Source: Hymenobacter sp. DG25A
GTDB lineage: Bacteria > Bacteroidota > Bacteroidia > Cytophagales > Hymenobacteraceae
Direction of reading: 5' to 3'
DNA: 64,000 nt
NCBI RefSeq assembly: GCF_001280305.1
Contig: NZ_CP012623.1
Location: 1,798,001 to 1,862,000, forward strand
Of this stretch, positions 18,223 to 31,759 are shown piece by piece (position 1 is the first letter of the stretch; each line of letters starts with the position of its first letter). The position numbers were made by a program, and so were the translations under genes. A model generated the notes under the pieces. The model was not told the DNA's origin. It searched no databases and was given only the letters and a program-made list of their open reading frames with translations.

Positions 18223-18255
18223 TTTGGAAGTATAAAATTTCGCCTCCTAACTTTG
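18223..18255 (+). promoter_or_regulatory. Promoter of the cys leader
   Basis: TTTG at 18223-18226 and TAACTTTG at 18248-18255 are separated by 21 bases, fitting the Bacteroidota sigma consensus. Transcription would start near 18260, about 20 bases before the riboswitch P1 stem. The sequence just downstream (GGGGCATCAATTCTTT, then CAAAGGAT) is nearly repeated in the permease leader at 31.76-31.79 kb. Confidence 0.75.
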
Positions 18256-18280
18256 GGGCATCAATTCTTTACCAAAGGAT

Positions 18281-18376
18281 TGTTTTTATACAGAGGCGTG
18301 GAGAGACAGGCTCTACGAAGCGCCGGCAACCAGCGGACCATCCGAAACGGTGCCAAGTCCTGAACATATAAAAACA
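18281..18376 (+). promoter_or_regulatory. SAM-I (S-box) riboswitch upstream of cysH
   Basis: P1 is TGTTTTTATA (18281-18290) with TATAAAAACA (18367-18376). P2 is formed by GGCG (18295-18298) with CGCC (18321-18324) and an inner AGAG/CTCT pair, enclosing the conserved GGAGAGACAGGCTCTACGAA-type core; CGGCAACC follows. P3 is CGGA/TCCG, then GGTGCCAAGTCC (18349-18360), the S-box J3/4 signature. Only six bases separate it from P1, so the usual P4 hairpin seems absent. It senses S-adenosylmethionine and should lower expression of the sulfate assimilation operon when SAM is high. Confidence 0.9.
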
Positions 18377-18383
18377 ACAAACT

Positions 18384-18479
18384 GTGAAACGCTTCCTCAA
18401 CTCCGCTACCACATCCGCCACCGCCTCTGCTGTACAGCATGGGTGTTGTGCCATGATGGGTATGCCCTGTTGTTGTTAG
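18384..18479 (+). CDS. Cysteine-rich leader peptide (cys operon)
   Basis: A 31-codon frame begins at a GTG 7 bases after the riboswitch P1 and ends in GCCAMMGMPCCC followed by TAG: five Cys and three Met codons in the last twelve residues. The start, MKRFLNSATTSATASA if GTG is read as Met, is not like a signal peptide. All five Cys codons are TGT, whereas the adjacent cysH mostly uses TGC. A second leader on the other strand (31530-31634) has the same start position relative to P1 and also ends in a Cys run. Cysteine-codon leader ORFs that sense cysteinyl-tRNA are known in other phyla. Translation here is not proven. Confidence 0.72.
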   Translation: MKRFLNSATTSATASAVQHGCCAMMGMPCCC

Positions 18480-18683
18480 CACCACGCCCCTCCCGCTTTT
18501 CTGGTTGTGTGCTTCTGAAGGCCCGCTGATGCGCTTGTGCGCTTAGTGCTCCGTAGCTGTACACCCCGCCTTCTGCCTCGCCGGGCACTACGCGTCGTTG
18601 CGCTGTAACGCCGCCCGCTGCCGGGGCCATTGTTTGGCCGGAACATGGGCTTGCTGCCCGGTTCTCCCCTTCCTTTTCCTGTT

Positions 18684-19505
18684 ATGTCCGCAGTAAATGC
18701 TGCGCCGGCCGTTCTTGCCTTGCTGGACGACCTGCGCCCCCGGCTGATTCAGGCTTCGGCTCTGGAGCGGCTGCGCCTCGTGGCCCAATACTTTCCCGGG
18801 CAGGCCGTGTTTTCCACCTCCTTCGGGCTGGAAGACCAGATTATCAGCCACCTGATTTTTGAGTTCGACCTGCCCATTCAGGTGTTTACGCTGGATACCG
18901 GCCGCAATTTCCAGGAAACCTACGCTACCTGGAACAAGACGCTGCTCAAGTATCAGAAGCCCATTGAGGTGTTCTTCCCGCAGCAGGCCGGCGTGCAAAA
19001 TCTGCTCCTGGAAAAGGGGCCAAACTCGTTCTACGAGAGCGTGGACAACCGCAAGGAATGCTGCTTTATCCGCAAAGTAGAGCCTTTGAATCGGGCCTTA
19101 GCCGGGAAGCAGGCATGGGTAACCGGCATTCGGGCCGAACAGTCCCAGAACCGCCAGACCATGGACCCCGTGGAGTGGGACGCCGCGCACAACCTCGTCA
19201 AAGTTCACCCCCTGTTCGACTGGACCTGGGAGGAGGCGGTGGCTTTCACCCAGCAGCACAGCATTCCGGTGAATACACTGCACCAGCAGGGCTTCGTCAG
19301 CATTGGCTGCGCGCCCTGCACCCGCGCCATTGGCCCCGGCGAAGACTTCCGCGCCGGCCGCTGGTGGTGGGAAGACTTATCGGCCAAAGAATGCGGGCTG
19401 CACACCACAGCCGCGCACAATGGCCCCGACCCGGTGGTAGAACCGATGCACTCAGAACGTCATGCAGAGCACAGCGAAGCATCTCGCGTGCTGACGTCTG
19501 AATAG
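18684..19505 (+). CDS. cysH: Adenylyl-sulfate reductase (thioredoxin-type), CysH family
   Basis: 273 residues from the ATG at 18684. The PAPS-reductase fold has FSTSFGLEDQ (P-loop like) and FTLDTGRNFQETY. The two Cys pairs ECCFIRKVEPL and SIGCAPCTR would bind a [4Fe-4S] cluster, which marks APS rather than PAPS reductases; the catalytic Cys is in KECGLHT near the end. No APS kinase (cysC) gene is present in the operon, in agreement. It reduces APS to sulfite. The last ~15 residues (RHAEHSEASRVLTSE) and the stop are encoded by an inserted palindromic repeat and are unlikely to belong to the ancestral protein. Confidence 0.95.
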   Translation: MSAVNAAPAVLALLDDLRPRLIQASALERLRLVAQYFPGQAVFSTSFGLEDQIISHLIFEFDLPIQVFTLDTGRNFQETYATWNKTLLKYQKPIEVFFPQQAGVQNLLLEKGPNSFYESVDNRKECCFIRKVEPLNRALAGKQAWVTGIRAEQSQNRQTMDPVEWDAAHNLVKVHPLFDWTWEEAVAFTQQHSIPVNTLHQQGFVSIGCAPCTRAIGPGEDFRAGRWWWEDLSAKECGLHTTAAHNGPDPVVEPMHSERHAEHSEASRVLTSE

Positions 19506-19553
19506 CCTTTCAACATCAGCACGCGAGATGCTTCGGCTGCGCCTCTGCATGAC
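19459..19553. repeat. GTCATG palindromic repeat overlapping the cysH 3' end
   Basis: Ends read GTCATGC and GCATGAC; the arms contain GCGAAGCATCTCGCGTGCTGA and its near reverse complement TCAGCACGCGAGATGCTTC (first 20 bases shown only in part). The left arm lies inside the cysH reading frame and supplies its last codons and stop. It is a member of the family also found at 21859, 51153, 56293 and 58963. Confidence 0.88.
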
Positions 19554-19570
19554 AAATTATTATCCTTCTC

Positions 19571-20482
19571 ATGAGTACCCCAACTTTCGATTATCTCGAC
19601 CGGCTGGAAGCCGAAGCCATTCATATTCTTCGGGAAGTGGCCGGCCAGTTTGAGCGGCCCGCGCTGCTGTTTTCCGGTGGCAAAGATTCCATTGTGCTTA
19701 CGCGTCTGGCAGAAAAAGCCTTTCGGCCCGGTCGGTTTCCTTTTCCGCTGGTGCACGTGGATACCGGCCACAACTTCCCCGAGGTGCTGACTTACCGCGA
19801 TGCGCTGGCCGAACAGCTGGGAGAGAAGCTGATTGTGCGCAGCGTGGAGGAAACCATCAAGCGGCAGCGTCTGCGCGAGCCCGGCGGCAAATACCCCAGC
19901 CGCAATCCGCTGCAGACTTATACCCTGCTGGAGACTATTGAGGAGTTTGAGTTTGATGCCTGCATTGGTGGTGCCCGCCGCGACGAAGAGAAGGCCCGAG
20001 CCAAGGAGCGCATCTTCTCCGTGCGCGACGAGTTCGGCCAGTGGGACCCCAAGCGCCAGCGCCCCGAGCTGTGGAACATCTACAACGGCCGCATTCAGAA
20101 GGGCGAAAACGTGCGCGTATTCCCCATTTCCAACTGGACGGAGCTGGACGTGTGGCGCTATATCCAGCGCGAAAACATTGCCCTCCCCGATATTTATTTC
20201 GGCCATGAGCGCACCTGTGTGGTGCTTCCCTCCGGCCAGCTGCTGGGCCTCACGGAGCACATCCGGCTGGATCAGGACGATGAAATTGTGACCCGTCAGG
20301 TGCGCTTCCGCACCGTGGGCGACTCCACCTGTACTGCCGCCGTGGAGAGCGACGCGGCCACCGTGGAGGACATTATTGAAGATCTGTTGCTGGCTAAAGT
20401 AAGTGAGCGGGGCGCTACCCGCCTCGACGACAACATCTCGGAAGCCGGCATGGAAGACCGGAAGCGCAACGGCTATTTCTAG
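19571..20482 (+). CDS. cysD: Sulfate adenylyltransferase subunit 2 CysD
   Basis: 303 residues, the standard length. The PP-loop FSGGKDS is at residues 34-40; GGARRDEEKARAKERIFS and the C-terminal IEDLLLAKVSERGATRLDD...MEDRKRNGYF are typical for CysD. It adenylates sulfate with ATP to give APS, driven by GTP hydrolysis of its partner CysN, encoded next with a 60-base gap. The palindromic repeat lies between cysH and cysD, so it may modulate or process the transcript. Confidence 0.97.
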   Translation: MSTPTFDYLDRLEAEAIHILREVAGQFERPALLFSGGKDSIVLTRLAEKAFRPGRFPFPLVHVDTGHNFPEVLTYRDALAEQLGEKLIVRSVEETIKRQRLREPGGKYPSRNPLQTYTLLETIEEFEFDACIGGARRDEEKARAKERIFSVRDEFGQWDPKRQRPELWNIYNGRIQKGENVRVFPISNWTELDVWRYIQRENIALPDIYFGHERTCVVLPSGQLLGLTEHIRLDQDDEIVTRQVRFRTVGDSTCTAAVESDAATVEDIIEDLLLAKVSERGATRLDDNISEAGMEDRKRNGYF

Positions 20483-20542
20483 CCTCTGGCAGTTCTTTTC
20501 AAACTACTATTTACCGGCTGCCTCCTGGCACGCTTCCCCAAT

Positions 20543-21829
20543 ATGGACCTTCTCCGATTTATCACCTGCGGCAGCGTCGACGACGGCAAAAGCACTTTGA
20601 TTGGCCGCCTGCTCTACGATTCTGAATCTGTTTCCCTAGATGTACTGGCCGCGCTGGAAAAGCGCCAGGCTTCCAACGGCGTAGTGGATCTGGCCCTGCT
20701 GACGGACGGCCTGCGTGCCGAGCGGGAACAGGGCATCACGATTGACGTCGCCTACAAGTACTTCACCACGCCCCGTCGCAAGTTCATCATTACCGATGCG
20801 CCCGGCCACGTGCAGTACACCCGCAACATGGTGACGGGCGCCAGCAACGCCGACATGGCCATAGTGCTGGTGGATGCGCGCCAGGGTGTGATTGAGCAAA
20901 CGCGCCGCCACACGCTTATTGCCGCGCTCCTGGGCATCCAGCACTTTGTGCTGGCCGTGAACAAGATGGATCTGGTGCAGTATGATGAGACGATATTCAA
21001 CCAGATTTCCGCCGACTACGCCGCCCTCACCGACCACTTCCAGCTGCCCAAAGCCACGGCCATTCCGCTAAGCGCCCTGAACGGCGACAACGTGGTAACC
21101 CGCTCCCGGCAACTGCCGTGGTACGCGGGCCCCAGCCTGCTGGAACATCTGGAAAGTGTGCCCGGCGCGGTGGAAGTGGCCGCCGCTCCCCGCTTCCAGG
21201 TGCAGTATGTTATTCGCCCGCAAACGCCGGAGCTGCCCGACTACCGCGGCTATGCCGGCCAGGTGCTGAGCGGCCAGTACCGCCGCGGCGACAAAGTGCG
21301 CATCCTGCCTTCGGAGCAGGAATCAACCATTGAAGCTATTGAAGTAAGCCAGCAGAAAGTGGAAACGGCCACGGCGCCGCAGGCCGTGGTCATTCGGCTG
21401 CGCGATGACGTGGACGTGAGCCGCGGCGACACCATTGTCCCGCTGCACGACGAGCCCACCCTGACGCGGGAGCTGGAAGCGACGCTGTGCTGGATGAGTG
21501 AGCAGCCCCTGTGGCCCGGCCGCAAGTTGTTGCTGCAGCATCATTCGGCGCTGGTGAAAGCGGCCGTTCCGGCCATCCTGCACAAAGTAAACGTGCACAC
21601 CTTTGCCCGCGCCGCCACCGACTCAGCCCAGCTCAACGACATCGTGCGGGTGCGCCTGAAAACGGCCGTTCCGCTGGCCGTGGACAATTACCACCAGAAC
21701 CGCACCACCGGCTCTTTCATTCTGGTAGATGAATTGAGCGGCGACACGGTAGCGGCCGGCCTCATCGGCGAAGCCAATGCCAACTACTTCACGGCGCCAA
21801 CGTCGCCGCCGGTTGCCTTTTCGATCTAA
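20543..21829 (+). CDS. cysN: Sulfate adenylyltransferase subunit 1 CysN
   Basis: 428 residues, GTPase of the EF-Tu family. G1 is GSVDDGKST (residues 10-18), G3 is DAPGHVQY (from Asp85) and G4 is NKMD (residues 140-143). Beta-barrel domains follow and the chain ends without a CysC (APS kinase) domain, so this is CysN alone, not the bifunctional NodQ/CysNC form. It couples GTP hydrolysis to APS formation by CysD. Confidence 0.97.
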   Translation: MDLLRFITCGSVDDGKSTLIGRLLYDSESVSLDVLAALEKRQASNGVVDLALLTDGLRAEREQGITIDVAYKYFTTPRRKFIITDAPGHVQYTRNMVTGASNADMAIVLVDARQGVIEQTRRHTLIAALLGIQHFVLAVNKMDLVQYDETIFNQISADYAALTDHFQLPKATAIPLSALNGDNVVTRSRQLPWYAGPSLLEHLESVPGAVEVAAAPRFQVQYVIRPQTPELPDYRGYAGQVLSGQYRRGDKVRILPSEQESTIEAIEVSQQKVETATAPQAVVIRLRDDVDVSRGDTIVPLHDEPTLTRELEATLCWMSEQPLWPGRKLLLQHHSALVKAAVPAILHKVNVHTFARAATDSAQLNDIVRVRLKTAVPLAVDNYHQNRTTGSFILVDELSGDTVAAGLIGEANANYFTAPTSPPVAFSI

Positions 21830-21858
21830 AACGATAAACAGTTTGGGTTGAAAAGAGC

Positions 21859-21957
21859 GTCATGTCGAGCGAAGTCGAGACATCTCGCTAGTGTGGTGAA
21901 TAGTGATTAGCACTGCAAAATCAGCACGCGAGATGTCTCGACAACACTTGACATGAC
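21859..21957. repeat. GTCATG palindromic repeat between cysN and cobA
   Basis: Inverted repeat bounded by GTCATGTC and a slightly degenerate GACATGAC end. The arms hold GAGACATCTCGC / GCGAGATGTCTCG. The loop carries CTAGTGTGGT...AGTGATTAGCAC, which is shared with the copies at 51153 (reverse orientation) and 58963. It sits within the cys operon between two co-oriented genes. Confidence 0.88.
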
Positions 21958-21987
21958 AGCCAGCTCTTCCTCCCTTTCTCCTCTGCT

Positions 21988-22785
21988 ATGTCACTTCCAA
22001 TCCAACCCCGTCTGACGGTCCTCGGTGCCGGCCCCGGCGACCCGGAGCTACTTACGCTCAAGGGGGCGCGGGTGCTGGGCGAGGCCGATGTGGTACTCTA
22101 CGATGCCCTGGCCAACCGGGCACTGCTGCAGCATACCCGGCCGGAAGCAATGCTAATTCCCGTGGGCAAGCGCCGGGGCATGCGCAGCCACTCGCAGGAC
22201 GAAATCAACGCCCTGATTGTGGAGTGCGCCCACCGGTACGGCCACGTGGTGCGGCTGAAAGGCGGCGACCCATTTGTGTTTGGCCGGGGCCGGGAGGAAA
22301 TGCTCTTTGCCGAAGCCCATGGCCTGACCACGGCCTACGTGCCCGGCATCAGCAGCGCGGTAGCGGCGGCGGGCAGCGTGGGCATTCCGGTTACGCACCG
22401 CGGGGCCAGCGAAGGGTTTCGGGTGATAACGGCCACCACCGCCAGCGGCGAGCTGGCGGCCAGTGTGATGGAAGCCGCCCGGTCCCGCACTACCACGGTC
22501 ATCCTGATGGGCCTGGGTGAGCTGGAAAACATTGTGCGTTTGTTCAGTGAAAACGGGCAGGCCGATACGCCGGCCGCCATTATCCAGAACGGCACCCTGC
22601 CTAATGCCCAGGTAGTGACCGGGCCGGTGGCCGAGTTGCCGGCCCGCGCTCTGGCGGCCGGTATTGGCGCCCCGGCCATTATCATCATTGGCGAAGTAAC
22701 CCGGCTTGCCACGCCTGAAATCCTACGTACTGTGCTGCCTAACGCTGGGTTTGCTACGGCAACCGCCTACGCGGAAGTAGCCTGA
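21988..22785 (+). CDS. cobA: Uroporphyrinogen-III C-methyltransferase
   Basis: 265 residues, SUMT/CysG C-terminal type. It starts with LTVLGAGPGDPELLTLKGARVL and has RLKGGDPFVFGRGREE, YVPGISSAVAAAGSVGIPVTHRG and ILMGLGELENIV, all SUMT signatures for SAM and tetrapyrrole binding. It makes precorrin-2, the precursor of siroheme needed by CysI. The next two siroheme steps are provided by the N-terminal half of the fusion at the end of this operon, so siroheme synthesis is split here between two genes unlike enterobacterial CysG. Confidence 0.95.
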   Translation: MSLPIQPRLTVLGAGPGDPELLTLKGARVLGEADVVLYDALANRALLQHTRPEAMLIPVGKRRGMRSHSQDEINALIVECAHRYGHVVRLKGGDPFVFGRGREEMLFAEAHGLTTAYVPGISSAVAAAGSVGIPVTHRGASEGFRVITATTASGELAASVMEAARSRTTTVILMGLGELENIVRLFSENGQADTPAAIIQNGTLPNAQVVTGPVAELPARALAAGIGAPAIIIIGEVTRLATPEILRTVLPNAGFATATAYAEVA

Positions 22786-22837
22786 TTTGACTGTTCCGGG
22801 AGCCCAACTTCCGGCCCTAACCTGAACCCTTCCCGCT

Positions 22838-24679
22838 ATGTCATCTTCTATCACGCTTCCTATCGGCTTTGATGAGGCTACGTTGCAGCAGTTCTCTACC
22901 GGCCTCAGCGACCAGCAGCTACTCTGGCTGAGCGGCTATTTTTATGGTCGGGCCGCGGGTGATGCGGGCAGCTTGCCATTCAGCCAAACTGCCGCAGCCG
23001 CTGCTCCCGCGGCGGACACTGCTACGCTTACTATCCTGTTCGGCTCGCAAACCGGCAACAGCAAGAAAGCGGCGGGTCTGGTGGTTGATGCTGCCCGGCA
23101 GCGCGGCCTGCAGGTAACAGTGCGCGACATGAACGACTACCCCACCAAGGAGCTGAAAAATGAGCGGCAGTTGCTGGTAGTAGTCAGCACCCAGGGCGAA
23201 GGCGACCCACCCATTGCGGCCGAAGAGCTGCACCAATTCCTGCTCAGCAACCGCGCCCCCCGGCTGCCCGAGCTGCGCTATGCCGTGCTGGCCCTCGGGG
23301 ACAAAAGCTACCTGCAGTTCTGCCAAACCGGCTTTGAGTTCGACCAGCGCCTGGCCGAGCTGGGTGCCAAGCGGCTGGTGGAGCGGGTAGATTGCGACGT
23401 GGAGTTTGAAGCCGAAACCAAACGCTGGGCCAGTCAGGTGCTGGAAGTAATTGCCCAATCGGTGGCTGCTACCGCGCCCGTTATCAACCAGGTTTCCGCG
23501 AATGTAACCCGGACGCCGCAGCCCCTGCTAGCGGCCCGCGAAACGGAACTGGAAGAGCGGGTAGAATACACCAGCCATAACCCATTTGCCGCGGAGCTGC
23601 TGGAGAAAATTCAGTTGAACGGCCGCGGCTCAGCCAAGGAAACCTACCATCTGGAGTTTTCTCTGGCCGGCTCCGGTATTCAGTATGAAGCCGGCGACGC
23701 CCTGATGGTACAGCCCGTAAACCAGGCCCAATTGGTGCGGGAAGTAGTACTGGCCGGCTGCCTGGATACCAGCGCCCCGGTGCAACTCAACGGCATCGAG
23801 CTGGACTTACAAGCTGCGCTGACGGAGCGCCTGGAAATATCGGTACTGACGCGCGACGTGCTGGAGCGCTACGCCGCCGTGGCCCCGAAACATCCCAAAC
23901 TCCGCGAAATCCTCGCGGACAAAACCCAACTACCTGCTTACCTATACGGCCGTGATGTGGCCGATTTGCTGCGCGAGTTTCCAGTGGAGCTTTCGGCGCA
24001 GCACCTGGCGGCGGTGCTGCGGCCTCTGCCGGCGCGGGCTTATTCCATTGCCAGCTCCCTGCTGGCGCACCCCGAAGAAGTACACCTCACCGTAGGGGCG
24101 GTGCGCTACGAGGCCCACGGCCGTCGCAAGCACGGCGCCTGCTCCGCTTACCAGGCCGATATGCTGACCGTGGGCGATACTGCCCGGGTGTGGGTAGACC
24201 GCAACGAGTACTTCAAGCTTCCCCAGGATTCCGCGGCAGATATCATCATGGTAGGGGCCGGCACGGGCATAGCACCCTTCCGGGCCTTTGTGGAAGAGCG
24301 GGCCGAAACCAATGCCACCGGACAGAACTGGCTGGTCTTCGGCAACCCGCACTTCACCACCGATTTCCTCTACCAGACCGAGTGGCAGCAGCACCTCAAG
24401 CACGGTACCCTCCACCGCCTGGACGTGGCTTTTTCCCGCGACCAGCAGGAGAAGCTCTACATCCAGCACCGCTTGCTGCAGCAAAGCCGGCGGGTGTACG
24501 ACCAACTCGAAAATGGCAGCTACTTCTACGTGTGCGGAGACAAAAACCGCATGGCGGCTGATGTGCGCCAGGCGCTATTAACCATTGTAGCGCAGGAAAG
24601 CGGCCGGAATGCCGAGTATGCCGCAGAGTATGTAAAACAGCTCCGCAAGCAGCGCCGCTACCTCGAAGACGTGTACTAA
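22838..24679 (+). CDS. cysJ: Assimilatory sulfite reductase flavoprotein (CysJ-type)
   Basis: 613 residues. A short N-terminal extension is followed by a flavodoxin domain (LFGSQTGNSKKAA at about 66-78; STQGEGDPP), an FAD-binding domain (RAYSIASS near residue 400) and an NADPH-binding domain (GAGTGIAPFRAF, LVFGNPHF, YFYVCGDKNRMAADV), ending with RRYLEDVY as in CysJ. It moves electrons from NADPH through FAD and FMN to the hemoprotein CysI. The partner gene is downstream, separated by the DUF2490 gene. Confidence 0.95.
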   Translation: MSSSITLPIGFDEATLQQFSTGLSDQQLLWLSGYFYGRAAGDAGSLPFSQTAAAAAPAADTATLTILFGSQTGNSKKAAGLVVDAARQRGLQVTVRDMNDYPTKELKNERQLLVVVSTQGEGDPPIAAEELHQFLLSNRAPRLPELRYAVLALGDKSYLQFCQTGFEFDQRLAELGAKRLVERVDCDVEFEAETKRWASQVLEVIAQSVAATAPVINQVSANVTRTPQPLLAARETELEERVEYTSHNPFAAELLEKIQLNGRGSAKETYHLEFSLAGSGIQYEAGDALMVQPVNQAQLVREVVLAGCLDTSAPVQLNGIELDLQAALTERLEISVLTRDVLERYAAVAPKHPKLREILADKTQLPAYLYGRDVADLLREFPVELSAQHLAAVLRPLPARAYSIASSLLAHPEEVHLTVGAVRYEAHGRRKHGACSAYQADMLTVGDTARVWVDRNEYFKLPQDSAADIIMVGAGTGIAPFRAFVEERAETNATGQNWLVFGNPHFTTDFLYQTEWQQHLKHGTLHRLDVAFSRDQQEKLYIQHRLLQQSRRVYDQLENGSYFYVCGDKNRMAADVRQALLTIVAQESGRNAEYAAEYVKQLRKQRRYLEDVY

Positions 24680-24695
24680 CCCCTCAGCCTTCCCG

Positions 24696-25412
24696 ATGTC
24701 GTTTGCTCGTTATTTCTTGTTGGTAGGTTGCTTAGCCGCGCAGTCGGGCTGGGCCCAGACGGCTCCCGTAACCTCACACCAGCAGGGCTATTGGCTGCGG
24801 TCCTACCTCCGGGTGAAACTGGCACCCCGCTGGACGTGGCACATTGAGCTGGATGAGCGGCGCTATGTCCGCCCCGACAAGCAATGGCAGCTGATTGCCC
24901 ACCAGCATCTGCATTACCGCATAGCCCTACCGCTGGAGTTGGCACTGGGCGGCACGTATTCGCGCCAGCCGCAAACCAGCGACTTGGTCTTGCCGGAATG
25001 GCGGGTGTTTGAAGAAGCTACCTACACCATTCCGATCAGCACCAATGTTCGCCTGCACAACCGCCTGCGGGTGGAGCAGCGCTGGCTGGCCACGGCAGCG
25101 GAAGGGCAACGGACCGAGGCGTGGGACTTTCGGCAGCGGGTGCGCTACCGGGTGCAAGCCGACTGGCAAACTACGCCGCGCTGGAAGCTGCGCGCGGCAG
25201 ATGAGCTGATGCTGAATACCGATAGCTTCGATCAGAACCGGGTGTATGCCGCCGCGGAGTTCCAAGTGCGGTCCGGCCTGGCCGCTGAGTTAGGCTACCT
25301 GCATATCTATCAGCGCCGTTTCCACCGCGCCGAGTACTACCAGCGCGACGCCCTGCGCCTCACCCTTTCCAAGGATCTGGACTTTTCCTCCTCCTCTACC
25401 CCAAAATCATAG
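24696..25412 (+). CDS. DUF2490 secreted protein, probable outer-membrane barrel
   Basis: 238 residues with a signal peptide (MSFARYFLLVGCLAAQSGWA then QTAP). The mature part consists of alternating amphipathic strands with many aromatic and Arg residues (YWLRSYLRVKLAPRWTWHIELDERRY...), as in DUF2490 beta-barrels. It starts 17 bases after cysJ and 50 before cysI, so it is co-transcribed with sulfite reductase. DUF2490 function is unknown; a role in sulfate or metal passage across the outer membrane is only a guess from context. Confidence 0.8.
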   Translation: MSFARYFLLVGCLAAQSGWAQTAPVTSHQQGYWLRSYLRVKLAPRWTWHIELDERRYVRPDKQWQLIAHQHLHYRIALPLELALGGTYSRQPQTSDLVLPEWRVFEEATYTIPISTNVRLHNRLRVEQRWLATAAEGQRTEAWDFRQRVRYRVQADWQTTPRWKLRAADELMLNTDSFDQNRVYAAAEFQVRSGLAAELGYLHIYQRRFHRAEYYQRDALRLTLSKDLDFSSSSTPKS

Positions 25413-25461
25413 CCAAACGGTAACTGAGCTCCTTTGCTTCAGTAGCCCGGCTTCCCGCAAT

Positions 25462-27171
25462 ATGTCGCAGAAACTCTCCGAAGTAGAACACGTGAAGGAT
25501 GCCAGCAACTACCTGCGCGGCACCCTGGCCGAGAGCGTGCTAAACCCCATTACCGGCGCCCTCTTCCCCGACGATACCCACCTGATCAAATTCCACGGCT
25601 CCTACCAGCAGACGGACCGCGACCTGGACAGTGAGCGAAAACGCCAGAAGCTGGAACCGCTGTATTCCTTTATGATAAGGGTGCGCGTACCCGGCGGCGT
25701 GGCCACCTCGGCGCAGTGGCTGCGCATGGATGAGCTGGCCGATACCTACGGCAACCACACGCTCAAGCTCACCACCCGCCAGGCCTTTCAGCTGCACGGC
25801 GTGTTGAAGCGCAATCTGAAAGAAACCATTCAGGGCTTTAATGACGTGCTGCTGGGCAGCATTGCGGGCTGCGGCGACGTGAACCGCAACGTCATGTTCA
25901 ACCCCAACCCGTACCAGTCGCGGGTGCACGAGCAGGTATATGACATCACCAAAGCCATTGGGGCGTACCTCACACCGCGCACCTCCGCCTACTGGGAATT
26001 ATGGCTCGATGGGGAATCGACCTACAGCAGCGCGCCGAATGAAGGCGAGGAAGATGCGGAGCCGATTTACGGCAAAACCTACCTGCCCCGCAAGTTCAAG
26101 ATTGCGCTGGCCGTACCGCCCTACAACGACACCGACATCTTCGCCAACGACCTGGGCCTGATTGCCATTGAGGAAAACGGCGAGCTGCTGGGCTTCAATG
26201 TAGCGGTGGGCGGCGGCATGGGCATGACCTTTGGTATGCCCGACACCTACCCGCGCCTGGCCGACATCATTGGGTACATTCCGGCGGGGAAAGTAGTGGA
26301 GGTGTGCGAGAAAATTGTGACCATTCAGCGAGACTGGGGCAACCGCGAAAACCGCAAATTCTCCCGCCTCAAATACACTCTGGACCGTGTAGGGCTGGAC
26401 GTATTTAAAGAGGAGCTGAACCGCCGCCTGGGTTTCGACCTGGACCCTGCCCGTCCTTATACCTTTCGCTCATCAGGCGACGCTTTCGGGTGGAATACAG
26501 GTCCGAATGGGGCGCGGCATCTGACACTATTTGTGGAGGGCGGCCGCATTCAGGACACGGAAAACAGCCGCCTGAAAACCGCCCTGCGCGACATTGCCCG
26601 TTTCCATACCGGCGACTTCCGCCTCACTGGCAACCAGAACCTGATTCTGGCCAACGTAGCCCCCGAGCATCAGCTCAGCATTCAGGCCACACTCTCGGAA
26701 AACGGCGTGCCGGTGGAGGCCAACGAGGTACACACCGGCCTGCGGCGGGGTGCTTTGGCCTGCGTGGCGCTTAATACCTGCAGCCTGGCTTTTGCCGAGG
26801 CCGAGCGGTATCTTCCAAAACTTTTAAATAGATTAGAGCAAGTCATTCGCCAGCAAGGCCTTAGCCAGGATGATATTCTGCTGCGGATGACGGGCTGTCC
26901 TAATGGCTGCGCCCGCCCCTACCTGGGCGAAATCGGGTTGGTGGGCCGCGCGGTTGGGCGCTACAACCTGTACCTCGGCGCCGCTTTCAACGGGGAGCGG
27001 CTGAACAAGCTCTACAAGGAAATGTTGGATGAAGACGGCATTGTGCAGGAGCTTACGCCTCTGTTGGCCGACTACGCCCAACACCGCCAACCCCAGGAGT
27101 CGTTTGGGGATTTTGTGATACGTAAGGGCTATGTACAGCCCACCACCCACGGACTCGATTTTCATCAGTAA
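25462..27171 (+). CDS. cysI: Sulfite reductase hemoprotein (CysI / nitrite-sulfite reductase)
   Basis: 569 residues. Two ferredoxin-like half-domains are followed by siroheme/4Fe-4S domains; the cluster cysteines are visible as CVALNTC (C-x5-C, about residues 434-440) and TGCPNGCARP (C-x3-C, about 476-480). It reduces sulfite to sulfide with six electrons from CysJ. The neighbouring cysJ, cobA and siroheme synthase support sulfite rather than nitrite as substrate. A final YVQPTTHGLDFHQ tail is normal for this group. Confidence 0.95.
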   Translation: MSQKLSEVEHVKDASNYLRGTLAESVLNPITGALFPDDTHLIKFHGSYQQTDRDLDSERKRQKLEPLYSFMIRVRVPGGVATSAQWLRMDELADTYGNHTLKLTTRQAFQLHGVLKRNLKETIQGFNDVLLGSIAGCGDVNRNVMFNPNPYQSRVHEQVYDITKAIGAYLTPRTSAYWELWLDGESTYSSAPNEGEEDAEPIYGKTYLPRKFKIALAVPPYNDTDIFANDLGLIAIEENGELLGFNVAVGGGMGMTFGMPDTYPRLADIIGYIPAGKVVEVCEKIVTIQRDWGNRENRKFSRLKYTLDRVGLDVFKEELNRRLGFDLDPARPYTFRSSGDAFGWNTGPNGARHLTLFVEGGRIQDTENSRLKTALRDIARFHTGDFRLTGNQNLILANVAPEHQLSIQATLSENGVPVEANEVHTGLRRGALACVALNTCSLAFAEAERYLPKLLNRLEQVIRQQGLSQDDILLRMTGCPNGCARPYLGEIGLVGRAVGRYNLYLGAAFNGERLNKLYKEMLDEDGIVQELTPLLADYAQHRQPQESFGDFVIRKGYVQPTTHGLDFHQ

Positions 27172-27240
27172 GTCCGCTTTTGCAGTCTTCCATTCGGCTG
27201 CCTGATTTCTGCTCTCCTCTCTCCACTGAACACAACCAAA

Positions 27241-28752
27241 ATGCCTCTCTCCTCTAATAATCCCATGCCCCAGCCAGAACCGCCGCCGCTGTCCGGTACC
27301 AACCGGCTGTTTCCGGTGTTTCTGAAGCTGGAGCAGCTGCATGTCCTGCTGGTTGGTGGGGGCGCCGTTGGCTTTGAGAAGCTCTCGGCCATGCTGGCGA
27401 ACAGTCCCGGCGCCGCGGTAACGGTGGTGGCTACCTGGTTTTCACCAGAACTGCAGCGCTTGGCCGCGCAGCACCCCTCTGTACAGCTGCGCGAAAAGCC
27501 CTACCACCCCACCGACCTGGTAGGCCATGACCTGGTGATTGTGGCCACCAACGATAAAGGTCTCAACCTAAGCATTAAAGCCGATGCCACCCGCCAGCGC
27601 CTGCTGTGCAACGTAGCCGACACCCCCGAGGCCTGCGACTTTTACATGGGCTCCATTGTGCAGAAAGGCGACTTGAAAATTGCCATCAGCACCAACGGTA
27701 AGTCGCCGACGATTGCCAAGCGCCTGCGCGAAATGCTGACCCATGCCCTACCCCACGAGTTGCACGACGTGCTGCAGCACATGACGGTGATTCGGGAGAA
27801 AGTAGGCGGCGACTTCGCCCGGAAAGTGAAGTCGTTGAATGAGGTGACGGCGGAGCTGGCCGGCGGGCCGGCGTATGAGTCGCCGGCAGCGGCGCGGTGG
27901 CGGCACATTGCTACGGGCTCGTTGCTGTCCTTCGCAGTGATGCTGATTTTCAACATCCTCTCCTACTACTTTACGTGGCAGCAGGTGTGGGATATGGCTA
28001 CGTCCTCCCAAACGTTCTACATTTTTGTAGCCATTGGGTTTGGCGCGCAACTCATTGACGGACTGCTGGGAATGGGCTACGGAGTAGTTACCGCCATCAG
28101 CCTGATGACGCTCAATATTTCGCCGGCGGCCGTTAGTTCGAGCATTCATACCGCCGAAATGTTTGCCAGCGGCGCCTCGGGCTACCATCACTACCGCTTC
28201 GGCAACGTGAACCGCAAGCTGTTTAAAGTGCTGTTGATTCCGGGGGTGCTGGGCGCTATTGTGGGGGCATTACTGCTGTCTAAGTTTGGAGACGAATATG
28301 CCCAGTATGTAAAGCCATTTCTTTCCGTGTACCTGCTGCTGCTGGGTCTGCGCATTATTTCCAAAGCCTTTTCCAAACCCGGCCCGCGTAAAAAGCATAA
28401 GCAGCTCGGGGTGCTGGCGGCCGCCGGCGGTTTTTTAGATTCGTTTGGCGGTGGCGGCTGGGGCCCGCTGGTTACCAGCACGCTCATTGCCGGCGGGCGC
28501 ACGCCGCAGTATGTTATCGGCTCGGTAAGCGTCACGGAGTTCTTTGTCACGTTTGCCAGCGCCGTTACCTTTTTTGCCACCATTGGCATTTCGCACTGGC
28601 AGATTATTCTAGGGCTGATTGTGGGTGGCGTGGCCGCGGCTCCGCTGGCCGCCCGCTTGTCCGGCCGCATTCCCGTGCGCTGGATGTTTGTGGGCGTGGG
28701 CCTGATGGTGATTGTGTGGAGTATGTGGTCGTTGCGTAAACTGCTGCTGTAG
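27241..28752 (+). CDS. Fusion: siroheme synthase (CysG N-domain) + TSUP transporter
   Basis: 503 residues. Residues about 20-220 match precorrin-2 dehydrogenase/sirohydrochlorin ferrochelatase: HVLLVGGGAVGFEKL, IVATNDKGLN, CNVADTPEACDFYMGSIV (with the catalytic-type Asp) and STNGKSPTIAKRLRE. Residues about 228-503 form a TauE/SafE (TSUP) transporter with some eight membrane helices (FGAQLIDGLLGMGYGV, DSFGGGGWGPLVTSTLIAGG). It thus completes siroheme synthesis and carries the only transporter in the operon, a candidate for sulfate uptake or sulfite export. The frame is uninterrupted through the join. A 19-bp hairpin terminator follows. Confidence 0.9.
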   Translation: MPLSSNNPMPQPEPPPLSGTNRLFPVFLKLEQLHVLLVGGGAVGFEKLSAMLANSPGAAVTVVATWFSPELQRLAAQHPSVQLREKPYHPTDLVGHDLVIVATNDKGLNLSIKADATRQRLLCNVADTPEACDFYMGSIVQKGDLKIAISTNGKSPTIAKRLREMLTHALPHELHDVLQHMTVIREKVGGDFARKVKSLNEVTAELAGGPAYESPAAARWRHIATGSLLSFAVMLIFNILSYYFTWQQVWDMATSSQTFYIFVAIGFGAQLIDGLLGMGYGVVTAISLMTLNISPAAVSSSIHTAEMFASGASGYHHYRFGNVNRKLFKVLLIPGVLGAIVGALLLSKFGDEYAQYVKPFLSVYLLLLGLRIISKAFSKPGPRKKHKQLGVLAAAGGFLDSFGGGGWGPLVTSTLIAGGRTPQYVIGSVSVTEFFVTFASAVTFFATIGISHWQIILGLIVGGVAAAPLAARLSGRIPVRWMFVGVGLMVIVWSMWSLRKLLL

Positions 28753-29855: not shown

Positions 29856-31313
29856 CTATGCTGTTTGCCTGGCCTTTGCTTTCAGGCCCAGTTTGCTATG
29901 CTTTTTGCCGTAGCCGAAGTAAATAGCCAACCCAATGGCCAACCATACAAACAGGCGAATCCAGGTGTCCAGCGGCAGGGAAAGCATCATAATCAGGCAG
30001 GTGACGATACCCAGAATAGGCACCAGCGGCACCCAGGGCGTGCGGAAGCCGCGCGGGGCATCGGGCTCTTTCTTGCGCATGATGAGAATGCCGATGCACA
30101 CCATCACGAAAGCCAGCAGCGTGCCAATGGACGTCATTTCACCGACCACTGAAATCGGTACAAAGCCCGCGAACACAGAAATAAACAACCCCAGCAGCAG
30201 ATTAGACTGCAGCGGCGTGCGGAACCGCTCGTGAATGCGCGAGAACACCGGCGGCAGCAGCCCGTCCTTCGCCATGGAGAAAAATACCCGGCTCTGCCCC
30301 AGCAAATCCACCAGAATAACGGATGTGTAGCCGATGATAATAGCCAGAATAACGGCCGAGGACAGCCAGGCATAGGGCGTTTTTTCAATGGCAATGGCTA
30401 CCGGCGCGGCGCTGTTTTTAAACTCCGTGTAGTTGGCCAAACCCGTCATTACGTGGCCAAACAGCACAAACAACACCGTGCAGATCAGCAGGGACCCGAT
30501 AATGCCGATGGGCATATTCTTCTGCGGATTCTTGGTTTCCTGGGCCATGGTGGCCACAATATCAAAGCCAATAAACACGAAGAACACCACGCCCGCGCCC
30601 CGCAGAATACCGCTCCAGCCAAACTCCCCGAACACGCCGGTATTCTGCGGAATGTAAGGTTGATAGTTGGCCGGATCGATATACTGCCAGCCCAGGGCAA
30701 TGAACACCAGCACTACGGCCACCTTCAGGGTAACTACCAGCGCATTAAACCACGCCGAGCCCGCCGTACCGCGAATGATGATGAGCGTGATAGCCAGCAC
30801 AATGAGCATGGCCGGAATATTCACAAAGCCATGCACCGTGCTGCCATCGGCCAAAGCCGCCGTTTCAAACGGCGACATCACCAACTGGGGCGGCAGATGA
30901 ATGCCATACTTGCTCAGGAATTTCAACAGGTACTGCGACCAGCTAATGGCTACCGTAGCCGCGCCCACGGAATATTCCAGGACCAAATCCCAGCCAATAA
31001 TCCAGGCAAACAGCTCGCCCATGGTAGCATAGGCATAGGTATAGGCAGAGCCGGAAACCGGCACCATGGAGGCAAACTCAGCGTAGCACAAGGCCGAAAA
31101 AGCACAGCCCACGGCCGCCACTATAAACGACAGAGTAACGGCCGGACCGGCATTATTGGCGGCTGCAATGCCGGTGAGCGAGAACAAGCCCGCTCCGATA
31201 ATTACCCCAATGCCAATGGCAATCAGATTGAAGCCGTTCAGGCTTCGTTTTAAGGTATGCGCGCCGGTTTCGGCCGCTTCCTGCCGCAGCAGTTCGAGTG
31301 ATTTTTTAAGCAT
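29856..31313 (-). CDS. APC-family amino acid permease (candidate sulfur amino acid transporter)
   Basis: About 485 residues from the ATG at 31313 (MLKKSLELLRQEA), although the frame is open 99 bases further. Twelve or more membrane helices; the first carries IGIGVIIGAGLFSLTGIAA, the substrate-binding GxG motif of the cationic amino acid transporter (CAT) branch, and ETKNPQKNMPIGI is a conserved loop. The gene is preceded by a leader with a SAM-I riboswitch and a cysteine-rich short ORF, so methionine, cysteine or a related compound is a more likely substrate than the usual broad CAT annotation. That is inference from regulation. Confidence 0.88.
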   Translation of the reverse strand: MLKKSLELLRQEAAETGAHTLKRSLNGFNLIAIGIGVIIGAGLFSLTGIAAANNAGPAVTLSFIVAAVGCAFSALCYAEFASMVPVSGSAYTYAYATMGELFAWIIGWDLVLEYSVGAATVAISWSQYLLKFLSKYGIHLPPQLVMSPFETAALADGSTVHGFVNIPAMLIVLAITLIIIRGTAGSAWFNALVVTLKVAVVLVFIALGWQYIDPANYQPYIPQNTGVFGEFGWSGILRGAGVVFFVFIGFDIVATMAQETKNPQKNMPIGIIGSLLICTVLFVLFGHVMTGLANYTEFKNSAAPVAIAIEKTPYAWLSSAVILAIIIGYTSVILVDLLGQSRVFFSMAKDGLLPPVFSRIHERFRTPLQSNLLLGLFISVFAGFVPISVVGEMTSIGTLLAFVMVCIGILIMRKKEPDAPRGFRTPWVPLVPILGIVTCLIMMLSLPLDTWIRLFVWLAIGLAIYFGYGKKHSKLGLKAKARQTA

Positions 31314-31529: not shown

Positions 31530-31634
31530 TTAACAGCAACAACATCCGGCGCAACAACAGGCGGCACGGAAAGGCACGCGCTGGAAGGCGGGAGAAGCAA
31601 AAAGCGGGGCAGGAAAGCGGGGGAAAAAGTCCAC
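31530..31634 (-). CDS. Cysteine-rich leader peptide (permease leader)
   Basis: A 34-codon frame on the reverse strand starts at a GTG (31632-31634) 7 bases after the P1 stem of the riboswitch and ends in ACCCAGCCCC before TAA: seven Cys in the last nine residues. The start context (TATAAAAACAAC, six bases, GTG) has the same spacing as the cysH leader, yet the coding part between start and Cys run is unrelated (DFFPRFPAPLFASPAF here). Five of seven Cys codons are TGT. The frame lies about 216 bases before the permease ATG. Conservation of start position and Cys ending in two otherwise different peptides argues for real translation. Confidence 0.72.
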   Translation of the reverse strand: MDFFPRFPAPLFASPAFQRVPFRAACCCAGCCCC

Positions 31635-31641
31635 GGTGTGT

Positions 31642-31759
31642 TGTTTTTATATTGTCAGGAAGAAGCTTCACTGACCTTCGGTTGGGCACCGTTCCGGCCA
31701 TTGGCGGAGGTTGCCGACGCATCGTAGAGCCTTTCTCTCAGCGTCTCTGTATAAAAACA
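31642..31759 (-). promoter_or_regulatory. SAM-I (S-box) riboswitch upstream of the APC permease
   Basis: Read on the reverse strand: P1 TGTTTTTATA (31759-31750) with TATAAAAACA (31651-31642), CAGAGACGCTGAGAGAAAGG and CTCTACGATGCGTCGGCAACC-type core (GACGC/GCGTC forms P2), a P3 of GGCC-containing arms, and GGTGCCCAACC. Unlike the cysH copy it keeps a P4 hairpin, GTCAG/CTGAC (31654-31675). P1 is identical in both copies. It should shut down the permease when SAM is plentiful. Confidence 0.85.

Follow-up and report, generated by a model that had tools for sequence, protein, structure and literature searches.

Leader ORFs and RNA sensors comparable with the element described here are known from several bacteria. 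In the Salmonella mgtA and mgtCBR leaders, the response to a metabolite or an ion is joined with a leader ORF on a single mRNA leader. Clostridial T-box and S-box sensors are RNA-only devices, some of them antisense, and do not involve a leader peptide. Mycobacterial ORFs with cysteine runs are reportedly leaderless, as the title of a 2020 article by Canestrari has it. Like our element, the cys leaders of Mycobacterium carry a run of cysteine codons near the stop, precede cys genes and lack a conserved terminator; an aptamer is not mentioned in the accessible part of that source (PMC1262725), whereas here a SAM-I aptamer and methionine codons are present, too. The uORFC-8-2 cysS motif of Rhodobacterales is also a leader ORF with tandem cysteine codons, but according to the available portion of its description it is a terminator-type attenuator before cysS and has no riboswitch, unlike the arrangement found here (PMC8632094). 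For the phylum of our organism, the accessible text of two sources reports S-boxes in Bacteroidetes (PMC2211319) and short ORFs in the long 5′ UTRs of Bacteroides thetaiotaomicron (PMC7366714).

We analyzed a stretch of 64,000 nucleotides from Hymenobacter sp. DG25A (the window). Hymenobacter belongs to the order Cytophagales of the phylum Bacteroidota, and the genome comprises 3.78 Mb with five SAM-I elements. The original prediction for this DNA was that a SAM-I riboswitch is directly coupled to a cysteine-codon leader peptide. Its S-box, for which P1 had been placed at 18281–18290/18367–18376, was recovered with the Rfam model (Table 1), P1 comprising 18283–18290/18367–18374. This helix can be extended to 18280/18377, and the P1 initially proposed can pair as an extended helix. 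Both aptamers of the window scored above the gathering cut-off of RF00162 (44.4 bits), and the first one is followed by a sulfur gene cluster starting with cysH. The GTG-started frame of 31 codons ending in TAG was present exactly as described, and its distance to cysH, estimated at about 205 bases, amounts to 204 bases between TAG and ATG.

It can be seen from Table 1 that a predicted hairpin directly precedes the aptamer; its last three bases (18280–18282) are shared with the P1 extension. The 3′ strand of P1 contains the motif AAAAA, which occupies positions −14 to −10 of the leader start. The leader tail reads CCAMMGMPCCC and adjoins the TAG. A crude scan of this locus (L002) between leader stop and cysH revealed no intrinsic terminator. 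The element upstream of the hairpin was assigned on the basis of what we take to be the Bacteroidota promoter consensus. CysH of the window shares 96% identity over the matched part with CysH of Hymenobacter sp. BT730 (locus L255). The remaining cluster carries cysD, cysN, a uroporphyrinogen-III methyltransferase gene, cysJ, a gene for a DUF2490 protein, cysI and a fusion gene (27241–28752), in which the N-terminal domain of siroheme synthase is joined to an exporter domain of the TauE/SafE type. An inverted repeat (19475–19535; 23-nt arms, 96% complementary) overlaps cysH at its 3′ end and is perhaps a dispersed palindromic element, and a Bacteroidales-type small SRP RNA (RF04183, 71 bits) was detected elsewhere in the window (40140–40038, minus strand).

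Table 1. Positions of the features discussed in the text (window coordinates; the last line refers to locus L302)
Feature	Position	Strand	Evidence
Putative Bacteroidota-type promoter: TTTG (18223–18226) and TAACTTTG (18248–18255)	18223..18255	+	Read from sequence
Predicted 5′ hairpin CAATTCTTT-ACC-AAAGGATTG	18262..18282	+	RNAfold prediction; comparable sequence at this position in many loci of the genus
SAM-I (S-box) aptamer	18283..18374	+	Rfam RF00162, 73.2 bits, E 3.1e-15
3′ strand of P1 and 9-nt spacer, proposed P1-occluded leader start region	18367..18383	+	A at −12/−13
Leader ORF, GTG start, 31 codons, VKRFLNSATTSATASAVQHGCCAMMGMPCCC, then stop	18384..18479	+	Sequence; 22/22 Hymenobacter cysH loci
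Untranslated stretch from leader stop to cysH	18480..18683	+	Sequence; alignment of 20/22 Hymenobacter cysH loci
cysH, phosphoadenylyl-sulfate reductase	18684..19505	+	PF01507, NF002537 above cut-off
Remaining sulfate assimilation gene cluster	19571..28752	+	Pfam, NCBIfam
Second SAM-I aptamer, before amino-acid permease gene	31644..31757	−	RF00162, 66.4 bits
Second leader ORF, GTG at +10 after P1, VDFFPRFPAPLFASPAFQRVPFRAACCCAGCCCC, then stop	31530..31634	−	Sequence
Amino-acid permease gene behind second element	29856..31313	−	PF13520, PF00324, PF13906 on longest frame
Tandem leaders of Flavobacterium locus L302	2094–2168 and 2259–2375		

The second leader of the window comprises 34 codons, ends with ACCCAGCCCC and is located at the same distance from its aptamer as the first one. 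The original prediction makes no mention of this second arrangement. For the permease gene behind it, we took the ATG of MLKKSLELL as the start; the longest frame extends to 31412. In front of a metY-type gene (identified with TIGR01326, above cut-off for the part of the gene examined), the genome carries a third leader, an ATG-started frame ending with RCCCSACCCCC. The original prediction had assigned the element to the sulfate operon. This holds true for the first locus but not as a limit, since the metY and permease genes carry such elements as well. The two other SAM-I elements of the genome precede metH-type frames, a match that was made on the partial frame of one of the two loci, and lack a leader. 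These loci (L001, L005) are only some 2 kb apart, and in both of them a downstream stretch resembles the complement of the aptamer 5′ side. The L005 frame stops after about 115 codons and thus looks like a partial duplicate.

As a check, the original prediction had proposed a covariance search in Cytophagales followed by a scan for cysteine-rich ORFs downstream. We searched 59 relatives and the genome itself and obtained 135 SAM-I loci among the matches listed (134 listed places plus one place of the genome itself; 16 listed places were left out). Forty further loci, hand-picked for variety outside the genus, came from an order sample of 69 genomes. A frame was called a leader when an ATG or GTG at +7 to +18 after P1 opened 12–70 codons with at least three cysteines. 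By this rule, which misses starts at +4 or +5 (L115, L127, possibly L100), 91 of the 175 loci read carry a leader; in L097, a frame at +6 ends early. Here, we found that the predicted combination of a SAM aptamer with a Cys/Met-codon leader recurs in 54 genomes and that 55 of the 91 leaders start exactly at +10. At least three cysteines are present among the last 14 residues in 78 leaders, and some of the other 13 are doubtful (L029, for instance, is terminator-type in appearance).

When the loci were sorted by the downstream gene, with labels that derive from tblastn against four genes of the genome itself, from family searches on single examples and from reading of the sequence (TonB-like, metX and NifS classes), leaders were found at cysH (19/21), permease (19/21), metY (16/29), RimK-like ATP-grasp (10/10), unnamed (7/7) and TonB-receptor-like genes (4/4), and at 16 of the 40 loci of the order sample, which were not classed. 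Leaders were absent from metH (0/35), homoserine dehydrogenase (0/4) and three small classes together (0/4). The RimK-like ATP-grasp gene, which follows SAM-I and Cys leader in ten loci (including L107, L110 and L105), may have a role in thiol metabolism. The TonB-dependent-receptor-like genes behind a Cys leader (L074, L075, L088 and L131, recognized by sequence inspection) are perhaps involved in the uptake of sulfur compounds. One genome of the same genus (G025) gave eleven SAM-I matches, two of which are divergent and about 370 bases apart on one contig.

Cysteine tails were observed in eight labelled families beyond that of the window (f2, f4, f5, f9, f14, f18, f19 and f69), also where the flanks are AT-rich. 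A protein search in named genomes, which yielded 55 cysH loci in all, showed the leader in 22 of 22 Hymenobacter cysH loci, although these are not a fully independent sample because several of the genomes also belong to the earlier SAM-I set. Absence of the Cys-rich frame behind orthologous riboswitches, which the original prediction had named as counter-evidence, was thus not encountered. On sequence grounds, the leader is real and more widespread than first described.

How closely is the leader coupled to the aptamer? In the leader loci the start codon usually follows P1 after nine bases, and P1 or its extension overlaps the leader start region by position, as in a translational riboswitch. 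Of the 91 leader loci, 79 have an A at −12 and 75 have one at −13, both positions lying within the 3′ strand of P1; an A is present at −3 in only 36 and at −6 in only 28 of them. For Flavobacterium johnsoniae, the accessible part of one source states that A at −3, −6, −12 and −13 together with low structure favors initiation (PMC6847099). P1 would thus cover part of the sequence on which a Bacteroidota ribosome relies at initiation, most clearly in Hymenobacter. The fraction of A at −14 to −11 was 0.94 in the genus leaders, 0.60 in those of other families and, at the equivalent P1 positions, 0.57 in non-leader loci.

For the 67 genus leader loci, the outward extension of P1 into the spacer, measured as complementarity of the P1-flanking 5′ arm to the leader spacer, had a mean score of 3.04 compared with 2.81 for swapped loci, and none of 1,000 swaps reached the observed value; this effect is small, and the swap test ignores kinship. 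The corresponding values for the 24 leader loci of other families were 2.88 and 1.95 (1 of 1,000 swaps), and the 84 non-leader loci showed no excess over swaps (486 of 1,000). In several loci the extension is missing. A hairpin abutting P1 was predicted for 41 of 67 leader loci in the genus (shuffles: 33%), 16 of 24 leader loci in other families (shuffles: 29%) and 44 of 84 non-leader loci (shuffles: 37%). Some families outside the genus have a spacer similar to the 5′ arm of this hairpin (e.g., AATTGC in L027 and L223), so that two partners would be available to the 3′ arm, namely its own 5′ arm and the spacer before the leader start. RNAfold folded L223 with a long P1; for L002, it predicted the hairpin but no P1. 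Both the hairpin and the A-richness of P1 in other families are less specific features. The motif TAnnTTTG within 75 nt before P1 was present in 60 of the 67 genus leader loci, in 10 of the 24 other-family leader loci and in 41 of the 84 non-leader loci.

The metH loci are organized differently. A stretch complementary to the 5′ side of the aptamer follows within 80 nt behind P1 in 33 of 35 metH loci and in none of the 91 leader loci. Terminator-like sites within 120 nt from P1 were detected in 3 of 91 leader loci compared with 20 of 84 non-leader loci. Taken together, the comparative data lend good support to the leader and to its close coupling to the aptamer.

We also looked for the leader beyond the order. 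In a sample of 296 genomes of the phylum, we inspected 70 mostly high-scoring loci for frames starting at +4 to +60 and counted cysteines in the last 14 residues; in this sample, which favors strong aptamers and includes three loci of the window's own order (L177, L185, L186), the best result was a single locus with three tail cysteines. None of the 33 non-Hymenobacter cysH loci had a SAM-I match at the Rfam cut-off, and six of them carry a Cys or Met/Cys leader without SAM-I. Four of nine Flavobacterium cysH loci (L298, L300, L301, L302) contain two tandem Met/Cys leader ORFs each, with tails such as NMMMCMCC and ICMMMMCC, and each of these leaders is followed by a hairpin-like, terminator-like repeat with a T-run. 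L298 also matches Bacteroid-trp (RF01692). In L288 and L308, poly-Cys frames precede cysH without SAM-I. The remaining 27 of the 33 loci, including those of Fibrella, Roseivirga and Aquirufa, which we take to be Cytophagales, showed neither SAM-I nor such a leader. In Hymenobacter lapidiphilus (L273:2080–2187) the aptamer has degraded to 38.6 bits, which is below the cut-off, and the Cys leader is retained. The leaders without SAM-I and this locus suggest that the leader is of value on its own and that SAM gating would be an added layer.

As in leader-peptide attenuators, a short ORF with the relevant control codons is conserved in relatives. Alternative terminator and antiterminator hairpins of the classical attenuator type were not found. 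A crude scan detected terminator-like sites behind the leader stop in 13 of 91 loci at scattered distances, so that a conserved terminator is lacking there, and no convincing conserved helix between P1 and cysH emerged from the alignment when 20 of the 22 Hymenobacter loci were compared (L273 and L275 were left out). We therefore do not claim classical terminator attenuation. We also considered that a stalled ribosome might open the gene start. When such a ribosome was masked in silico in 42 metY and permease loci, gene-start opening changed from 0.581 to 0.615 with a median change of 0.002, and this small modelled effect argues against that possibility. In leaders acting by occlusion of Rho, such as tnaC, the leader stop is followed by an entry site that is rich in C and poor in G. 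In the first 20 nt after the stop, the excess of C over G was 0.11 in genus leaders and 0.09 in other families, with later windows of the latter reaching up to 0.14, and the same alignment shows a pyrimidine-rich tract directly after the stop. This mild excess and the tract are compatible with Rho occlusion. An involvement of Rho has been suggested before for the mycobacterial cys leaders, as stated in the available part of that work (PMC1262725).

The following scenario would connect these features. The 5′ hairpin, the aptamer and the leader ORF would form a SAM-gated sulfur-amino-acid attenuator on one mRNA, in which the 3′ strand of P1 doubles as the A-rich upstream part of the leader start region. 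This coupling through P1 is an extension of the original prediction. With SAM bound, P1 and its extension would hide the start region and the leader would stay untranslated. At low SAM, the 5′ hairpin would compete for the shared bases, P1 would open and ribosomes would start on the leader. If charged tRNA-Cys (and tRNA-Met) is in short supply, they would stall at the Cys/Met tail and the sulfur genes would be switched on; if it is sufficient, they would finish the leader and expression would stay low. Full expression would need low SAM and low cysteine together and thus follow an AND-like logic. For the last step, occlusion of a Rho entry site behind the stop is, in our view, more likely than an altered RNA structure. 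Since the aptamer lies some nine bases before a frame with cysteine codons, the sulfur genes appear to be under two sulfur signals at once; the targets are cysH, metY, the amino-acid permease gene and the RimK-like gene. An AND gate makes sense if methionine and cysteine are interconvertible. The genome encodes cysK and a match to cystathionine gamma-synthase, both above cut-off, together with a relative of cystathionine beta-synthase below it, which makes such a gate physiologically possible.

Several other explanations have to be weighed against this scenario. The tail region has a high content of G and T, and a chance frame in a G/T-rich spacer might resemble a leader. We applied a fixed-start rule that does not use cysteine (ATG or GTG nearest to +10 after P1, 12–70 codons). 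It gave a frame in 102 of 175 loci, with at least three cysteines among the last 14 residues in 78 and at least four in 67 of them, whereas 6,840 anchors placed at random in these loci (chiefly coding DNA) yielded 677 frames, of which five had at least three and one had at least four. A scan taking the first start codon often ended in other frames and was replaced by the rules given above; it found at least four cysteines among the last 12 residues in 9/29 metY, 6/21 permease and 11/21 cysH loci, and in 9 of 3,659 shuffles. Methionine, which was not used for selection, shows a strong frame bias: within the final 18 codons, 108 ATG triplets are in frame compared with 13 and 11 in the two remaining frames, and methionine constitutes 6.7% of the tail residues versus 0.4% of the remainder. 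Families with AT-rich flanks also show the leader, and its occurrence in nine labelled families contradicts a chance origin, which we regard as practically negligible. It is also conceivable that the Cys-rich peptide has a function of its own, either as a sensor of metals or thiols or as a small functional protein, since poly-Cys tails could bind metals or thiols. However, the N-terminal parts of the leaders differ strongly from locus to locus, a pN/pS of 0.59 over 16 related pairs indicates that the peptide is weakly constrained, and the named targets are mostly sulfur genes, so that such a role is highly improbable.

Alternatively, two independent controls may be stacked on the mRNA, SAM-I acting alone (e.g., on transcription) and a Cys/Met attenuator being translated regardless of P1. 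Leaders without SAM-I at six of the 33 non-Hymenobacter cysH loci, the leader that outlives its decayed aptamer in H. lapidiphilus, the metH aptamers without leader and the A content at the P1 positions in other families, which hardly exceeds that of non-leader loci, would all be in line with this idea. On the other hand, the scarcity of terminator-like sites near P1 in leader loci compared with non-leader loci, the start near +10 and the complementarity of the spacer to the P1-flanking arm, which goes beyond that of swapped loci, speak against it, and we consider independent stacking rather unlikely. An OR-like logic, in which low SAM or low cysteine would each be enough, for instance because presence or absence of the ribosome switches the RNA in another way, is physiologically attractive for metY and cysH, and the downstream step would leave room for it. 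However, if P1 blocks leader initiation, high SAM would silence the cysteine sensor, and this makes OR-like control improbable. With these alternatives in mind, the SAM-gated Cys/Met attenuator is the best explanation and probably the correct one. For the more general statement that across Cytophagales the regulated output of SAM-I is not a gene but the translation start of a Cys/Met leader, with an AND of low SAM and low charged tRNA-Cys for a sulfur regulon and with sister aptamers of these genomes acting on metH in a different arrangement, we see the chances as evenly balanced.

The codons of the tail deserve a separate comment. The last cysteine codon adjoins the stop in 61 of the 91 leaders. 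In the genus leaders (67 loci) the TGT:TGC ratio was 260:113 compared with 13:188 in the genes behind, which corresponds to an odds ratio of 33; slow decoding or RNA structure may cause this preference. Pairing of the cysteine codon run (UGUUGUUGU) with ACAACA before the start was more favorable than after synonymous recoding to gene usage, but it was not better than with swapped tails (p = 0.20), and we rejected this pairing as a locus-specific switch.

The original prediction had been aware of no described system of this kind in Bacteroidota, and the literature matches listed (open-licence papers) likewise included no case in which a SAM-I riboswitch is combined with a cysteine leader. As a member of RF00162 the element resembles other SAM-I riboswitches in exceeding the cut-off and in having sulfur genes downstream, but its proposed target is a leader-ORF start region and not a terminator or the start of an enzyme gene; its sister loci at metH are arranged differently. 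Bacteroid-trp and the short ORFs of B. thetaiotaomicron represent peptide-leader control in the same phylum, but the former concerns tryptophan, the latter are unspecified, and the accessible parts of the sources do not mention an aptamer. With the clostridial sulfur genes under T-box and S-box control, as far as their description was available, the element shares sensing of SAM and tRNA-Cys on one sulfur pathway. The Salmonella mgtA and mgtCBR leaders, compared here by their general description, involve neither SAM-I nor sulfur. If our interpretation is true, Bacteroidota, which lack Shine–Dalgarno sequences, can use the A-rich start region as riboswitch target. The metH aptamers without leader, the Flavobacterium leaders without aptamer and the locus with the decayed aptamer would provide internal controls for such a two-input RNA gate. 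Most likely, the element is a new combination of two known kinds of control: a riboswitch and a leader-peptide attenuator, each known separately, are connected here at nearly fixed spacing. The combination occurs more than once per genome, at several sulfur genes, and was observed in nine labelled families belonging to a single order.
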